DNA from: Phycisphaerae bacterium
GTDB lineage: Bacteria > Planctomycetota > Phycisphaerae > UBA1845 > PWPN01
Direction: 5' to 3'
DNA: 64,000 bases
Assembly (NCBI GenBank): GCA_030372985.1
Contig: JAUCQB010000120.1
Span: forward strand, 124,001 to 188,000
Shown: positions 11,166-18,234 of the stretch, one piece after another
Position numbering within the stretch: the first letter of the stretch is position 1
Layout of the letters: each line of letters starts with the position of its first letter
The notes under the pieces: model-generated
Seen by the model: the letters and a program-made list of their open reading frames with translations, nothing else
What the model was told of the DNA's origin: nothing
The model's database searches: none
Program-made: the position numbers and the translations under genes

Positions 11166-11180
11166 CCTCCCCGCACGACG

Positions 11181-11312
11181 GCTGACCGCTTGTCCCGAGC
11201 CAAGTCGAGGGGCTGACCGCTTGTCCCGAGCGAAGTCGAGGGGCTGACCGCTTGTCCCGAGCGAAGTTGAGGGGCTGACCGCTTGTCCCGAGCCAAGTCG
11301 AGGGGCTGACCG
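11181..11312. repeat. 31-bp tandem repeat, four full copies plus partial
   Basis: Units begin GCTGACCGCTTGTCCCGAGC and start at 11181, 11212, 11243 and 11274, with a partial fifth at 11305. Copies differ at one or two positions. No coding role is apparent. Confidence 0.9.
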
Positions 11313-11592: not shown

Positions 11593-12547
11593 CGGTTCAC
11601 CCCCACGTGCGTGGGGACAACGTCGACGACCCCGCGGCCAACCCCGACGGACTCGGTTCACCCCCACGTGCGTGGGGACAACGGTCGAGAACACGATGCT
11701 GGGCTTGGCGCCGTTCGGTTCACCCCCACGTGCGTGGGGACAACGTCCATGGCGTTGCGAGCGGTGATGGCCAAGGACGGTTCACCCCCACGTGCGTGGG
11801 GACAACCTCCTCTGCCGTACATGGCCGACAGGATCATCGCGGTTCACCCCCACGTGCGTGGGGACAACGATTGAGTGGCGTATCGGCCATCCCTGACCAC
11901 CGGTTCACCCCCACGTGCGTGGGGACAACGTCAGAATTCCCTTTGCTGAGAAGCTGTTGGCTCGGTTCACCCCCACGTGCGTGGGGACAACATACTTCGG
12001 GATGGCGATGCAGTTGACCCGCATCGGTTCACCCCCACGTGCGTGGGGACAACGATCCTGGGCATCGAGCCCTCGACCTTCCGGCGCGGTTCACCCCCAC
12101 GTGCGTGGGGACAACGCGTTGGCCTGCTGTCCAGGTAGCCCGCGATGCCCGGTTCACCCCCACGTGCGTGGGGACAACGGCCAGGCGGTGGGCCTGGCGG
12201 AAACACTCGCTCGGTTCACCCCCACGTGCGTGGGGACAACGAGCCGGGCCAGCTCGACGTTGGTCGCGGGGCCGGTTCACCCCCACGTGCGTGGGGACAA
12301 CGGCCCCATTCACCATTGCCCCGCCCGGACAGCCCGGTTCACCCCCACGTGCGTGGGGACAACGTGCGCGCATTTTTTTAAGGCCTTGGGGTACGACGGT
12401 TCACCCCCACGTGCGTGGGGACAACGACGCAATCCGCGAAGATGGGCGGCACGGTTTCGGTTCACCCCCACGTGCGTGGGGACAACTCCCTGCGGGTGAC
12501 CCGGCTGGAGGCGAGGGACGGTTCACCCCCACGTGCGTGGGGACAAC
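11593..12547 (-). CRISPR. Type I-E CRISPR array, 16 repeats and 15 spacers
   Basis: Sixteen identical 29-bp repeats, reading CGGTTCACCC...GGGGACAAC on the plus strand, start at 11593, 11654, 11716, 11778, 11840, 11901, 11963, 12025, 12087, 12150, 12212, 12273, 12335, 12397, 12458 and 12519. Spacers are 32-34 nt. On the minus strand the repeat starts GTTGTCCCCACGCACG and ends GTGAACCG, with a CCCCAC/GTGGGG stem and GCAC loop, matching the crRNA-sense orientation of other type I-E repeats. The array is therefore read leftward, in line with the cas genes, and the predicted 5' handle is GUGAACCG. No degenerate terminal repeat is seen. Confidence 0.97.
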
Positions 12548-12904: not shown

Positions 12905-13648
12905 TTACCGTACCGGCGCCACCGACAACAGCCCAAACCCAAAGGCCTTGGCGGGACCGATGCCGCAAATCAGCGTTTCGCGGAAACGATCAGCATCTGC
13001 AACTTCCAACACTCCGTCGTACAGAACAGACCGCAGACGCTGACCGCCACCAGCAGAGGGGTTCGCGTTGAGATACACATAGCCGACCTCGATGGCCGGC
13101 TGGTCCTTGAGGCGGAAGCCGCCGCTTTCGGCGCGGCGATCCAACCACTTGCACAGATGATCTGTTGGCACGGGGACGCGGCGCCCGTGGCGGCCAGGAA
13201 GCTTGTTGAGGCGATCTTCCTTGGTGAGCGTATCTTTCTTCTTTGTCGGGTTTGCCTTCAGGCGAAACCGCAGACGCCTGCCTGCTGCGAATCCCGGCTC
13301 AAACGGTCTGGTCTCAGGCGCGGCCGCCAGGAGGTAGGCGGCATTATGGAAGGCGTAGTCCCAGTCCGGTTCAATTGCGGATTGAACCACGATCACGGGA
13401 TTTCCGCCGGGCTGAGGATCCAGGCGGAAGAGAAATGCGCTGTCCACAGTACGCGGGGTGTGCACGTGCCCGAAACGGTCCGGATCGTACGGTTGGAGGA
13501 AGGCCGGGTCATCGGTCTTACAGGCCTTCGTGGGAAACGCCATACACAGGCGTTGGTGGACACGGTAGAGGTTGCGGAGCCACAACCGCCCGGGACGCGG
13601 GCGGTCAGGATTGGCTCCAACGTCAACCAGGAGGCAGGACAGATACAT
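12905..13648 (-). CDS. cas6e: CRISPR-associated endoribonuclease Cas6e (type I-E)
   Basis: A 247-residue RAMP protein that cleaves pre-crRNA at the base of the repeat hairpin and stays bound to the 3' end of crRNA in Cascade. I chose ATG at 13648, two bases after the cas5 stop, with a strong GAGGAGGT ribosome binding site inside the end of cas5; longer frames to 13747 lie in cas5. The N-terminal MYLSCLLVDV strand, the YRVHQRLCMAF helix with likely catalytic H31, and the C-terminal glycine-rich loop GIGPAKAFGFGLL are family hallmarks. It is the last intact cas gene of the operon. Confidence 0.93.
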   Translation of the reverse strand: MYLSCLLVDVGANPDRPRPGRLWLRNLYRVHQRLCMAFPTKACKTDDPAFLQPYDPDRFGHVHTPRTVDSAFLFRLDPQPGGNPVIVVQSAIEPDWDYAFHNAAYLLAAAPETRPFEPGFAAGRRLRFRLKANPTKKKDTLTKEDRLNKLPGRHGRRVPVPTDHLCKWLDRRAESGGFRLKDQPAIEVGYVYLNANPSAGGGQRLRSVLYDGVLEVADADRFRETLICGIGPAKAFGFGLLSVAPVR

Positions 13649-13650
13649 CG

Positions 13651-14763
13651 CTATTCGACCTCCTCGGCGTTCAGACGCCGGCGGCGGGTTTCCAGCGAAC
13701 GAAAGCGGATCATCTCGTCCCGCTTGGCGATGATCCTGTCGCGCCACTTCGCCTCTTCGGGGTTGATGCGGTCCAGGTCCATCCCCAGGCCGTACTCGAT
13801 CATGGTTACGGCGTCATGGCACAACCTGCATAGCGACCGGAGGTCATCGACGCTCTCCCCGCCACCAGCACGACGGTAGGTGATGTGCTGAACGGTTGTG
13901 CCCGCAGATTTGCAGAAGACACACAGGCCACGATCAGCATCCAGGCGGGTCTGACGTTTCCTGCGGTACTCGGTATTAGCATAATCCGCCCGGGGGCGCG
14001 GAGGGGGCGGGGTATGGTTCTGTCTCGGCGTACCTAGACCGATGTCTTTGCCGTCGCCGACCGTCAGTTGTCTACGGATCACCAATCTCGCCTGATGGCC
14101 GGGTACGTCGAACGACTGGGCGACGTCGTACCAGACCTCCGCTTCCGGCGGCACGGAATCGCCCGGCAGGGCGGCACTCCATTCCAGCAGACAATCCACC
14201 ACATCGGGCACGGGGTCTTCTCTTGCGCGCTTTCGCCAGGGAACGGATCGAATCGCGCTCTCAAGATCGGCAAACTCTCCCGTTCCTGGCTCATCGTTTC
14301 GACCCAGGAGCGGAACGGACGCGGCACACGACTTCCGGCCTAGGTACGGGGGCCAGGTCGGATCCAACAGCGCCGCATGCAACGAGTCGATCAGCGTGGG
14401 ATCGCCGTGGATCGCGACGAGGAAACTGGCGTCGCACAGATACTCCCTGCGGGTGAGCATCGCCCCGGGCTTGGTCTTTCCTTCGGCTTCGGCGATCCGC
14501 ATCTGCATTCCCGCGCCCACCGTCTGGTAATCCCACCACCGGACCCCCGGGCGATCGATGCGAACACCCAGTCGGAGGGCATTCAGTTCGACCAGTCGCC
14601 GCCGCGCATCCGCGCGCGAAACGCCCAGGGCCGCGCAAAGCAGGCCAACAACGCCCGACTTTGTCGGCGCCTCGGCCGTTCTTCGTATGACGAACTTCGA
14701 CCCCTGGTCGCCCCAAGATTGGAGCGGGCCTTCGAGCCGAAGGAAGAGCGTGTTCGCCCTCAT
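13651..14763 (-). CDS. cas5e: Cas5e fused to a C-terminal HNH nuclease domain
   Basis: A 370-residue protein; ordinary Cas5e is about 220 to 250. Residues 1 to about 245 are Cas5e, starting MRANTLFLRLEGPLQSWGD and containing TKSGVVGLL, REYLCDASFLVAI and PPYLGRKSC; it caps the 5' handle of crRNA in Cascade. A Pro-rich linker (TPPPPRPR, 251-258) and a basic stretch lead to an HNH domain at about 278-322: C281xxC284, VQHITY with H293 as likely general base, then DDLRSLCRLCHD with C312xxC315 and H316. The usual first His/Asp of the HH pair is Gln292. A basic helical tail follows. With no cas3 in the locus, HNH is the probable target-DNA nuclease. GGAGGT precedes the ATG; 12 bases separate it from cas7. 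Confidence 0.95.
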   Translation of the reverse strand: MRANTLFLRLEGPLQSWGDQGSKFVIRRTAEAPTKSGVVGLLCAALGVSRADARRRLVELNALRLGVRIDRPGVRWWDYQTVGAGMQMRIAEAEGKTKPGAMLTRREYLCDASFLVAIHGDPTLIDSLHAALLDPTWPPYLGRKSCAASVPLLGRNDEPGTGEFADLESAIRSVPWRKRAREDPVPDVVDCLLEWSAALPGDSVPPEAEVWYDVAQSFDVPGHQARLVIRRQLTVGDGKDIGLGTPRQNHTPPPPRPRADYANTEYRRKRQTRLDADRGLCVFCKSAGTTVQHITYRRAGGGESVDDLRSLCRLCHDAVTMIEYGLGMDLDRINPEEAKWRDRIIAKRDEMIRFRSLETRRRRLNAEEVE

Positions 14764-14775
14764 GGCCGCACCTCC

Positions 14776-15912
14776 TCACCAGACCGTAACCGTCTGGACT
14801 TCCGCCCAGTCGAAGCCGATCTCTTTGACCACTACCGCCACCAGCTCATCGAGCGACTTCAGATTCTGGTCGGCGCATGATTGATCCTTCTTTTCGTTGA
14901 GGTAGGTCAGCCGGTAACGCAGGTTGGGAGAGAACCAGAACCGCTTGTCCTTGGCGTCCTTCCCGTAGCCGGTATCCAGATCATGCACGTACTGGCCCAG
15001 TTGGGCGATGCTCTGCGACACGAGATCGCGCGGCCCCTTGCTTGGCACCGGTGACGCAAAGGCGTTGGCGTAGCTGATTGGGGTGCAGCGGCTCCTTTTG
15101 ACCTCGACAATGATGCCGTCCGGGGGATTGTGAGCCGCGAAGCTGTTCTGCTTGCCAGTGGGATTGGCCAGCGCAGCCCCACGCAGAAACGCACCGACGG
15201 TATGGGCCGCCAGGAACTCCTTGTTACCCGGGAAGCCTGCGAGATTCTTAAGCAATGTCTCCCAGTGGATGGAGAAGTATTTGTAGAAACAGGCCGAAGC
15301 GAACATCGCTTCGTCAACGTAGCCGGCGCCGGCATCCTCGCCGGGGATATCGTCGGCCGCGACATAGTAGTCTACCTCCGGGCGGGCTTCGTGTGTGGAG
15401 ATCGCATGCGCAACCTGGAGCGCGGCTTCCACCGTCGTATCCGTGAGTACACCCGTCTCCAGCATCCTGCCCGCCAGCGCCATGTCCGGAGCCGCAACGA
15501 GGCTGGAAATGAGCCTCCCGCATTGCTCGGCAAGCTGATCCGTCTCGCCGTCATGGTCTTGGAGCAGTTGAGCGATCTTCCCGATGGCCTCCTGTGTTGT
15601 GTAGACGAGCATATCGCTCTTGTTCTCGTCCTTCGGGGCGATGCCACATTTTTCCAGAAGCTTCGCTGCTCGCTTTTTCACATCGCCTTTCCCGGTCACC
15701 TTGTCAGCGACTAGCCTGGCAAGCTGGCGTGTGCGGATGCCGCCGCACAGCAGCTTGAACTGCTCGCTCGTCCGGATACTCCGCTTGATGCACTGGCTCG
15801 AAATCCGCGAGCGCATCACCCCACCGAAGTAGCAGGTCTTGGGGGCGCCCAGATCGTCGCGGTTGAGATTGCCCGGGCTATGGTTTTGAATCGCGTGGAT
15901 CTCGATCAACAT
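14776..15912 (-). CDS. cas7e: CRISPR-associated protein Cas7e (Cse4/CasC), Cascade backbone
   Basis: A 378-residue RAMP protein; six copies form the crRNA-binding backbone of type I-E Cascade. The start MLIEIHAIQNHSPGNLNRDD followed by GAPKTCYFGGVMRSRISSQC and KRSIR is diagnostic of Cas7e. Length is typical. The start has a good AAGGAG ribosome binding site and sits 21 bases after cse2. No unusual insertion is seen, so the backbone should be normal despite the altered Cas5. Confidence 0.96.
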   Translation of the reverse strand: MLIEIHAIQNHSPGNLNRDDLGAPKTCYFGGVMRSRISSQCIKRSIRTSEQFKLLCGGIRTRQLARLVADKVTGKGDVKKRAAKLLEKCGIAPKDENKSDMLVYTTQEAIGKIAQLLQDHDGETDQLAEQCGRLISSLVAAPDMALAGRMLETGVLTDTTVEAALQVAHAISTHEARPEVDYYVAADDIPGEDAGAGYVDEAMFASACFYKYFSIHWETLLKNLAGFPGNKEFLAAHTVGAFLRGAALANPTGKQNSFAAHNPPDGIIVEVKRSRCTPISYANAFASPVPSKGPRDLVSQSIAQLGQYVHDLDTGYGKDAKDKRFWFSPNLRYRLTYLNEKKDQSCADQNLKSLDELVAVVVKEIGFDWAEVQTVTVW

Positions 15913-15933
15913 ATGATTCTCCTTCGCAGAATG

Positions 15934-16419
15934 TCAGCGTGTGATTCGTAGGTACTGTCTGGCCCATTTGAGGCGTGTTTCCTCTCGTTCCCAGATGGAC
16001 AGCTCGTCGGTCAGTTGCACCCAGTCCAAGCCTGCTCCATTGTCCCTAACGAGCGAGATCGCCCACTGCAATTCGGGTTCAATCTGGTTCAGGGGGAGCA
16101 TCAGCAGTTTATCAAACTTCTCTTGCCACCGTTGCGCCGTGCGTTCGTCGGCGGCCTTCAGGCTCCCCAACCGCGAAGCAAGCGTTGCGCCGCCTGATTG
16201 GGGCATCGGGCAAAAGGCGTAGAGTTTGGTAATCAGCCAGGCCACTTCCCGACGGGGCGCTCTCTGGTTCTTCTGCCTGAGCGGCCACCAGAGACCGGCG
16301 AAGAGATCGAAGCCGTCCACCGATTCGTCGAGTGACGAACCCGCGAGATTCCGCAGTTTCCCGAGGTCCCCGGGCTTGAGCGCCTCCAGCGTCCGGATGA
16401 ATTCTTCCGTGGCCGTCAT
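15934..16419 (-). CDS. cse2: CRISPR-associated protein Cse2 (CasB/Cas11e)
   Basis: A 161-residue helical small subunit of type I-E Cascade; two copies line the belly and stabilise the R-loop. The start at 16419 (MTATEEFIRTLEAL) overlaps the cse1 stop as ATGA, so translation is coupled. Features include the ALKPGDLGKLRN and REVAWLITKLYAFCP segments and the C-terminal ERETRLKWARQYLRI helix. A longer open frame to 16599 lies within cse1 and is not used. Confidence 0.92.
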   Translation of the reverse strand: MTATEEFIRTLEALKPGDLGKLRNLAGSSLDESVDGFDLFAGLWWPLRQKNQRAPRREVAWLITKLYAFCPMPQSGGATLASRLGSLKAADERTAQRWQEKFDKLLMLPLNQIEPELQWAISLVRDNGAGLDWVQLTDELSIWEREETRLKWARQYLRITR

Positions 16420-17861
16420 GGTTCGTCGCCTTTCTTCGCCCTGGACTTCCTCGGCTCGGCAGCCGGCTTCACCGTCATCTGCGGAACGACCCCGGCAATT
16501 CGCTCGCGGCATTGAAGCGCCCGGGTGGTGAACCCGGGTGCAAGAGACTTTGCGACAACCGACGCCATCCGCCGGTATTCCTGGACCGCCTGAGCCCATC
16601 CCGCCTCAGGGCTCGTCAGCAGCTCGGAAATACGGGCAGAAACTCGCGCTTCCACCTCGGGCCGGATAGCGCCTGTCGCGGCCGTGAACTCAACGCCTCG
16701 CGAATTGGAGCCCCCGGCTTTCATCCGTGCCGGCAACTTCTTGCCTTCCTCATCCCAAATCTTGATCCTTCCGGCGGCCTCCGGTCCGGCGACGCCGTTC
16801 CATACCTGTGGTGGTATCGCGCAGGTACGTTCCCAGACATCGATGTTCTTAGCCTTGTCGGTGGCAAGACCGACCACAAGCAATTGGACATGACCCGGAT
16901 GGCCACCGAACCTGCTCAACCAGGTTGGTTCCATCAGCAGCGACGTCCACGGCTTGTCCGTCCGGAAAAGGGGTTTCGTGGGGTCTGGCGTGGTGAGGGC
17001 CTTCCTTCTCACCGATCCGTCCTTCGCTTTCCTCTTTGAATAGATGACGTGCGGATCGTCCCAAGCATCATTCTGCTGCTTTCCTGCGCTCTGGAACTCG
17101 CACATCCGAATGAGCGCCGACTCCTGCCTGCCACAGCCGATGCACAAGCCCCCTGGGCCGGCGGGGTCATGCAGCCAGACCCGTCGTGACAACATCGTGA
17201 GTCCGTTCAAGGTCGGAACCGGTGCGCCCGCGAGCAACGCCGGATTGAACTCCTCCCAAACGGGCAGTCCGAGCGATACACAGTGGATCCAGTTGAGACA
17301 AAGCGTATGCAGCAGTGACCGGCCAATAGGGACAGCGTAAATCGGCGGCGTTCCGTTGATTCCCGATTTCAAGTCGGGCAAGCCGCTCACCGAAAACAGC
17401 GGGAGCCTCAGCAGCCCCATCGTGCAACATGCGGGACAGAGACTCTCTTGGGCGTCGGTCGAATGCCTAAAATGCCAGAAGTTGTTGCCCGTCGGAATCT
17501 CCTGCAAGAGGTCGGTCGCAGCCCGTAACCGCTTGGCGCTGGGATCCTGGTAGAACCGCTTCGCGTCGCCGAGCAGGCTGAAACACTCTCGGTGTTGCTC
17601 CAACTTGGCGAACCACTCCGTCGGGAACCGCCCATCGCGGAGGATCTGGTCCTTCTCGTCTTGCCCCCGCGGATTTCCCTTGCACCAGTAAAGGATCGCC
17701 ACTAGGAACCGAATCAACGCGACGCGGTCCATCGGGTTCGGCGCCGCGATCTGGCGAATTCGGCCCGCTTCGGTCAAGGCCCTAAGGATGCCAACGCGAT
17801 CAAAGCGCCCGTCGAGGTACAGCACAGGAATCCACTTCTCATCGAGCAGGTTGTACTCCAT
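16416..17861 (-). CDS. cse1: CRISPR-associated protein Cse1 (CasA/Cas8e), Cascade large subunit
   Basis: A 481-residue large subunit that recognises the PAM and, in classical type I-E, recruits Cas3. The start MEYNLLDEKWIPVLYLDG matches the family. Two CxxC pairs (C142/C145 and C240/C243) form the usual Cse1 zinc site in the middle of the protein. The C-terminal four-helix bundle contains a stretch of basic residues, ending KSRAKKGDEP. It is the first gene of the operon, 57 bases after the predicted transcription start, with GGAGG 8 bases before ATG. Whether the Cas3-docking surface survives cannot be judged by eye, and no cas3 lies nearby. Confidence 0.94.
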   Translation of the reverse strand: MEYNLLDEKWIPVLYLDGRFDRVGILRALTEAGRIRQIAAPNPMDRVALIRFLVAILYWCKGNPRGQDEKDQILRDGRFPTEWFAKLEQHRECFSLLGDAKRFYQDPSAKRLRAATDLLQEIPTGNNFWHFRHSTDAQESLCPACCTMGLLRLPLFSVSGLPDLKSGINGTPPIYAVPIGRSLLHTLCLNWIHCVSLGLPVWEEFNPALLAGAPVPTLNGLTMLSRRVWLHDPAGPGGLCIGCGRQESALIRMCEFQSAGKQQNDAWDDPHVIYSKRKAKDGSVRRKALTTPDPTKPLFRTDKPWTSLLMEPTWLSRFGGHPGHVQLLVVGLATDKAKNIDVWERTCAIPPQVWNGVAGPEAAGRIKIWDEEGKKLPARMKAGGSNSRGVEFTAATGAIRPEVEARVSARISELLTSPEAGWAQAVQEYRRMASVVAKSLAPGFTTRALQCRERIAGVVPQMTVKPAAEPRKSRAKKGDEP

Positions 17862-17953: not shown

Positions 17954-18118
17954 GGTTTTTTTGAAGGGAAAATGGTTTGATCTGGATAAGGGCTTGAGTT
18001 AGTGGCTGTGGCCTGTCTTCCGGCATGCTCATTTCGGCGTTTGCCTGGTATGTTGATTGGCGTATTTCTGGTATTCCGCGGTTTCGCCTTCTGGTTCGCC
18101 GCGGTGGGCGGGAGAAGC

Positions 18119-18178
18119 TGTTGGCTGTTGGCTGTTGGCTATTAGCTATTAGCTTTTAGCTATTAGCTGTTAGCTGTT
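18119..18178. repeat. AGCTATTAGC-type short tandem repeat, copy 1
   Basis: A run of 7-10 bp units such as TTGGCTG, TTAGCTA and TTTAGCTA lies between the ldh stop and the cas promoter. Related runs occur at 55652-55682 and 62147-62180 in the nuo operon. The remaining sequence from 17954 to 18118 shows no gene. Confidence 0.8.
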
Positions 18179-18234
18179 GGCCGGCCGGCTTCGGCGGGGC
18201 GAGCGTGTTTGTCCGTGGTTATCGATGGAGGACT

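Follow-up and report, generated by a model that had tools for sequence, protein, structure and literature searches.

A type I-E2 (Cas5-HNH) CRISPR effector in a Planctomycetota bacterium, with cas1 and cas2 remnants beside its array

We examined a 64,000-nucleotide stretch of DNA (the window) from a 245 kb contig in the 6.45 Mb genome of a Phycisphaerae bacterium. The window contains a complete five-gene type I-E effector operon on the minus strand (12905-17861), adjoining a CRISPR array of 16 repeats (Table 1). Pfam and NCBIfam searches identified the genes as cas8e, cas11, cas7, cas5-HNH, and cas6, and the operon and array are flanked by ldh (lactate/malate dehydrogenase) and def (peptide deformylase), as had been recognized in an initial annotation made from the sequence alone. 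All five effector genes have open frames. The start of cas11 overlaps the stop of cas8e, and cas6 begins two bases past the cas5-HNH stop, at a probable ATG (13648) whose Met, residue 34 of a longer open reading frame, is also where the CRISPR_assoc domain begins. For cas11, the 161-residue form served as the query in the locus comparison. The solved chain closest to the window Cas8 is 8yb6_J of a Cas5-HNH Cascade (2.5e-73).

Table 1. Features of the CRISPR-Cas locus (window positions)
Feature	Position	Strand	Supporting match
cas8e (Cse1), large subunit, 481 aa	16416..17861	(-)	Pfam CRISPR_Cse1, 1.9e-48
cas11 (Cse2), 161 aa from inner ATG	15934..16419	(-)	Pfam CRISPR_Cse2, 5.3e-15, scored on the longer cas11 ORF to 16599
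cas7 (Cse4), backbone subunit, 378 aa	14776..15912	(-)	Pfam Cas_CT1975, 1.6e-88
cas5-HNH, 370 aa: Cas5e domain, linker, HNH nuclease, C-terminal helix	13651..14763	(-)	
HNH core, residues 281-316: C281/C284, Q292-H293, C312/C315, H316	13816..13923	(-)	
cas6e	12905..13648	(-)	Pfam CRISPR_assoc, 4.2e-43
cas1 remnant, first ~25 codons	12741..12809	(-)	tblastn, 75% over 20 aa to Cas1 of related locus L013
cas2 remnant, last ~44 codons	12557..12694	(-)	HMM of 18 relatives, E 4.2e-13
CRISPR array: 29-nt repeat GTTGTCCCCACGCACGTGGGGGTGAACCG in 16 identical copies, with 15 spacers (32-34 nt)	11593..12547	(-)	

The initial annotation had read the cas5 product as a Cas5e protein with a fused HNH nuclease, and profile searches agree with this reading. 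Pfam Cas_Cas5d matched residues 5-221 (2.6e-41), NCBIfam casD_Cas5e matched the protein at 1e-45, and Pfam HNH (PF01844) matched residues 284-319 with an E value of 6.3e-5 and 23.5 bits, over the curated cut-off of 21.4. The HNH match remained significant, at 1.2e-5, when residues 244-370 were searched alone, a check of the kind that the annotation had proposed; a weak NCBIfam IscB match across the HNH part (6.3e-5) fell far under its cut-off. The residues picked out as the HNH motif, C281, C284, H293, C312, C315, and H316, are all present, and none of them varies across the 23 aligned Cas5-HNH proteins. A distant Cas5-HNH protein (L142:829-1998, genome G378) keeps His-His and the final His and has no paired zinc-type cysteines, so not every member of the family keeps the full motif.

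In a phmmer search of the PDB, the top match of the window Cas5-HNH was chain 8yb6_A (E 5.9e-116), and its pairwise identity with the solved Cas5-HNH is 53%. An AlphaFold model of the protein (mean pLDDT 82.4, pTM 0.64) was compared with solved structures using Foldseek, in which the top seven matches were chains of Cas5-HNH Cascades (8zlu, 8yha, 8yb6, 8zp7, 9jxs, 8zp9, and 8zol), with plain Cas5e chains ranking after them. The rmsd was 17-19 angstrom against the first five, which are full-length chains, so the model recognizes folds and does not predict the placement of the HNH domain. Against 8zp9 and 8zol, in which 227 and 205 residues are modelled (presumably those of the Cas5 portion), the rmsd was 3.8 and 2.6 angstrom. 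The predicted folds of the window protein match those of Cas5-HNH Cascade chains, HNH placement lying outside what the model predicts. Gene content, motif, and domain folds are direct observations at this locus.

To place the protein among its relatives, we used a contig scan that yielded 156 confirmed loci, of which the best 80 were kept. Among these best 80 of 156, 22 (L013-L034) encode Cas5-HNH, from Planctomycetota, Chloroflexota, Armatimonadota, Cloacimonadota, Pseudomonadota, a Deltaproteobacteria bin (Myxococcota in the tree listing), and one Thermoplasmata archaeon. Further searches matched 12 genomes among 200 relatives, 18 among 397 of the same class, and 6 among 392 of the same phylum; each count includes the genome under study, and some of the matches are plain or partial Cas5. 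In a maximum-likelihood tree built on the Cas5 portion, with 89 rows (60 without the HNH motif), all 29 HNH-bearing rows lie on one side of a single branch with support 98/95, and this clade recurred in 97% of 200 bootstrap trees; HNH presence requires 1 change on the tree, against a shuffled mean of 24.6. The window Cas5, whose phylogeny the annotation had also suggested as a check, falls inside this clade and groups with L013 and L014, to which it is 75% and 73% identical. Since the HNH proteins form a single clade, one fusion event is enough, probably followed by transfer between phyla. The archaeal member (L020:10001-11083) lies on a 799-kb contig of its Thermoplasmata bin and groups with a Chloroflexi sequence, reflecting either cross-domain transfer or mis-binning. 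At another locus (L130:1501-2064, also scanned as L162), the front part of Cas5-HNH is replaced by an apparent Rhs/YD-repeat reading frame, leaving the locus broken.

The interval from the cas6 stop (12905) to the first repeat (12547) holds a scar, in which a fragment of cas1 is followed by one of cas2, both on the strand and in the order expected; the initial annotation mentions neither. The cas1 piece matched an HMM of 18 relatives at model positions 4-41 (E 1.4e-6), and the cas2 piece corresponds to model positions 83-126, in a frame that differs from that of the cas1 piece. A cas1 beginning and a cas2 end that are out of frame with each other point to an internal deletion, which removed the greater part of cas1 together with the front of cas2. 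The stop of the cas2 remnant is 9 nt before the array, the same distance as for intact cas2 in L013 and L021; in 13 loci measured, this gap spans 9 to 83 nt. A Cas1 search of the genome under study gave 0 matches, compared with matches in 9 of 14 control genomes; of 22 other Cas5-HNH genomes, 20 encode Cas1. Among 37 Cas5-HNH loci readable past cas6, a count that leaves out the cut loci L014, L027, and L149/L166 and includes L162 despite its broken cas5, 34 have cas1 and three do not: the window, L026, and L028. In L026 (8797-9064), only the cas2 end is left (E 4.8e-12), with no cas1, and no Cas1 was found in its genome. In L028 (11851-11941), there is no trace of cas1-cas2 and the array begins 86 nt past the cas6 stop; the genome has one Cas1, which shares a contig with a Cas3 and is not on the contig of L028. 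The three different end points indicate separate losses. The cas2 end kept beside the array may serve as a leader.

The array comprises 16 exact repeat matches (0 expected), with its leader side at 12547, and the repeat did not turn up elsewhere in the genome when up to 3 mismatches were allowed. When patterns of 8 of the 15 spacers were searched against viral contigs, one matched and seven did not. The match was to spacer 14, which translates to NGAKPSIVFST in one frame and agrees with an IMG/VR contig at 28 of 33 positions (mismatches at 6, 24, 25, 28, and 29), inside a gene called as a phage portal (Pfam, 1.6e-62) that adjoins a terminase gene. AGG, which is a PAM of E. coli type I-E, stands on the 5' side of the match, and mismatches 6 and 24 fall at the every-sixth positions that type I-E leaves unpaired. 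The match is suggestive of an anti-phage past, a lone 20-base match in so large a collection not being beyond chance on its own. In phage records, 13 of 50,697 had partial matches (80-90%, E ~0.5), all crossing spacer joints, and these were set aside. The joined spacers gave no full match in the bacterium's own genome outside the array, the best partial match (26 bases, 92%) falling on spacer 13 and its joint. Imperfect short tandem repeats occupy 18116-18181, between ldh and cas8e; a 15-nt match of spacer 10 to these is probably due to chance and was set aside. Just past the far end of the array (11180-11303), a 31-nt repeat occurs in four nearly identical copies.

With cas1-cas2 destroyed and no Cas1 found elsewhere in the genome, the array should be a fixed memory, and the effector should interfere with targets but not learn by itself. 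The same scar and the same lack of Cas1 would also be expected if the whole system were decaying, cas1-cas2 having been lost first and the effector remaining intact only through recency, without selection. The distribution among close relatives could be read in this way, because no Cas5-HNH occurs among the 12 same-family genomes listed (G023-G034), where the sole match, in G024, is a plain Cas5e. We regard such decay as possible but rather doubtful: the five effector genes are open with the invariant Cas5-HNH columns kept, all 16 repeats are identical, and the array-abutting cas2 end, where the leader would lie, has been spared, although none of these observations dates the loss. The reading of an effector with fixed memory describes one that is apparently intact and of an already known variant, its dead adaptation module being its own twist.

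Absence of cas3 had been noted for the window in the initial annotation, and searches with E. coli Cas3, Cas1, and Cas2 likewise gave no match in the window at E<=1e-3. The annotation had also pointed to the complete genome as the place where a cas3 might yet be found. There, Cas3 models matched the core at three places and the HD domain at one, all below curated cut-offs; these four matches were read from their sequences as Mfd, a DEAD-box helicase, RecG, and an HDOD/histidine-kinase protein and were dropped, leaving no Cas3. The core model matches all 14 of 14 control genomes and exceeds the cut-off in 6, so sub-cut-off matches of this kind are common. As the assembly comprises 272 contigs, at completeness 99 and with 6.44% contamination, the evidence that cas3 and cas1 are missing is strong, not absolute. 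Among the best 80 of 156 relatives, the E. coli Cas3 probe matched 0 of 22 Cas5-HNH loci compared with 51 of 58 plain Cas5e loci; for those of the same best 80 of 156 with at least 8 kb upstream of cas5, cas3 was present at 0 of 13 Cas5-HNH and 40 of 40 plain Cas5e loci. The probe found no match in 11 more flanked Cas5-HNH stretches (L153, L155-L159, L161, and L163-L166, the last being the contig of L149), and there was no Cas3 match in L160, which ends inside cas7, or in L162.

Cas3 over cut-off was found in 6 of the 22 other Cas5-HNH genomes, always on a contig other than that of Cas5-HNH, which ties its absence to the locus and not always to the genome. With Cas1 in 20 of these 22 genomes, and with further sub-cut-off matches to the Cas3 core (70-82 bits, in long frames) in G022, G105, and G005, one might suppose that the complex borrows Cas3 or adaptation proteins in trans from another system. 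We consider borrowing of this kind highly improbable, for neither Cas3 nor Cas1 was found in the window's own genome, and none of six further Cas5-HNH genomes (completeness 92-96%) has Cas3 over cut-off. In addition, human-cell editing by the Candidatus Cloacimonetes Cas5-HNH system, described as yielding indels in dependence on HNH, already points to Cas3-free interference in a relative (PMC10910872).

The Cas5-HNH kind itself is already known, and the 2023 survey to which the annotation referred exists (Altae-Tran 2023); it sets out a type I-E-related system of five genes with Cas5-HNH, cas3 being absent from most examples (PMC10910872). The variant is named I-E2 in a 2025 classification (PMC12669027). 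The Cloacimonetes system is reported to cut double-stranded DNA in a PAM-dependent manner beyond the PAM-distal end of the protospacer, 3-4 bp past it on the target strand and 8 bp on the non-target strand, and to cut single-stranded DNA collaterally (PMC10910872). Since its solved Cas5 is 53% identical to that of the window, the Cas3-free cutting at a defined place that the annotation had proposed gains support by analogy. The two systems (PMC10910872; PDB 8yb6, 8yha, 8zlu, 8zp7, and 9jxs) have in common five genes without cas3, HNH at the C-terminus of Cas5e, a TTVQH motif, and spacers of ~32 nt. Unlike the Cloacimonetes system, the window has a Planctomycetota host and has lost cas1-cas2 down to a scar, and its Cas5 is without ~20 residues of a loop present in the Cloacimonetes protein.

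The usual HNH residues include a His or Asp in the first position of the pair, plus an Asn. In the window protein, the first position of the pair is Gln292, and the position taken for the usual Asn is Asp. Gln292 had been singled out as a point of difference, a view we dropped: the solved Cas5-HNH has the same residue, as do 20 of 23 aligned proteins (window included), with His in the other 3 (L025, L026, and L034). Among further proteins, His is found in the divergent L131/L156, L132, L155, L157, L158, and L149 and in the fused L133, and Gln in L153, L160-L162, L141, L143, and L144. Gln is the usual state at this position near the window and in the solved enzyme. That these substitutions render the HNH catalytically dead, the complex only binding and silencing DNA, is very unlikely, because the solved Cloacimonetes chain carries the same two residues and the Cloacimonetes complex, presumably comprising the same proteins as those solved, is reported to cut DNA HNH-dependently (PMC10910872).

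Two other systems place the locus further. Canonical type I-E, the Cascade-Cas3 of E. coli, shares the subunit set with the window, and its repeat has the same 29-nt shape and a similar 5' handle; in contrast to it, the window system yielded no Cas3 in locus or genome, carries its nuclease on Cas5, and retains cas1-cas2 only as remnants. In type I-F4 (Cas8-HNH of Selenomonas), an HNH built into Cascade likewise replaces Cas3, as described in PMC11459484, but there it resides in Cas8 on an I-F backbone instead of in Cas5 on an I-E backbone, and the window Cas8, of Cse1 type by Pfam, gave no HNH match.

Taken from the Cloacimonetes system and canonical type I-E, the following course would apply to the window complex. 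Cas6 would process the pre-crRNA into guides that each retain an 8-nt 5' handle (GTGAACCG), and Cas5-HNH, Cas7, Cas11, Cas8, and Cas6 would assemble into Cascade on each guide. Cas8 would license targets that carry a PAM, and completion of the R-loop would allow the HNH of Cas5, held near Cas6 and Cas11, to cleave both strands, without Cas3, a few bases past the PAM-distal end. A commentary describes the HNH as sandwiched by Cas6 and Cas11 and moving with Cas6 upon target binding (PMC11822464). Overall, the window locus is very probably a type I-E2 (Cas5-HNH) effector in Planctomycetota that cuts without Cas3 and holds its array as fixed memory.

At two related loci, Cas5, HNH, and Cas6 are joined in one ORF: L034:8072-9985 (637 aa; Pfam Cas5 14-196, Cas6 431-633), from a Planctomycetaceae bin, and L133:772-2661 (630 aa; Cas5 14-203, Cas6 424-629), from a genome of the window's order. 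Pfam at E 0.001 reports no HNH in either protein, and the HNH assignment there is based on motif and alignment. The two are sisters in the tree (100/100), and tblastn scans of L034 and L159 gave no cas11 match beside the fusions. A search for a third fusion with the L133 protein in 392 phylum genomes gave 6 matches, none extending past residue 389 of 630. The close spacing of cas5-HNH and cas6 in the window, together with the one-ORF fusions, fits the reported contact between HNH and Cas6. In the literature searched, we found no previous description of a scar like this one or of Cas5-HNH fused to Cas6; what appears new at the window locus is the cas1/cas2 scar between cas6 and the array.

A broader reading, which we offer tentatively, is that I-E2 effectors have repeatedly been kept as fixed-memory weapons through leader-sparing deletions, and that in L034 and L133 the HNH joins Cas5 to Cas6. 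In the window lineage and L026, deletions removed all or most of cas1 and the front of cas2 and spared the array-abutting cas2 end, as if selection kept a leader or promoter while discarding adaptation. In L034 and L133, the HNH might link Cas5, at the 5' handle end, to Cas6, at the 3' hairpin end, closing the Cascade ring in a single covalent chain, and such fusions could let the complex be built from fewer chains. One experimentally studied Cas5-HNH system is reported in PMC10910872, that of Cloacimonetes; the window adds a Planctomycetota member to the family, and our comparison shows the Gln active-site variant to be usual among close relatives and gives a clean cas3 contrast between HNH and plain Cas5e loci. 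Cas3-less Cascades make a defined cut instead of shredding their target, which is useful for editing.
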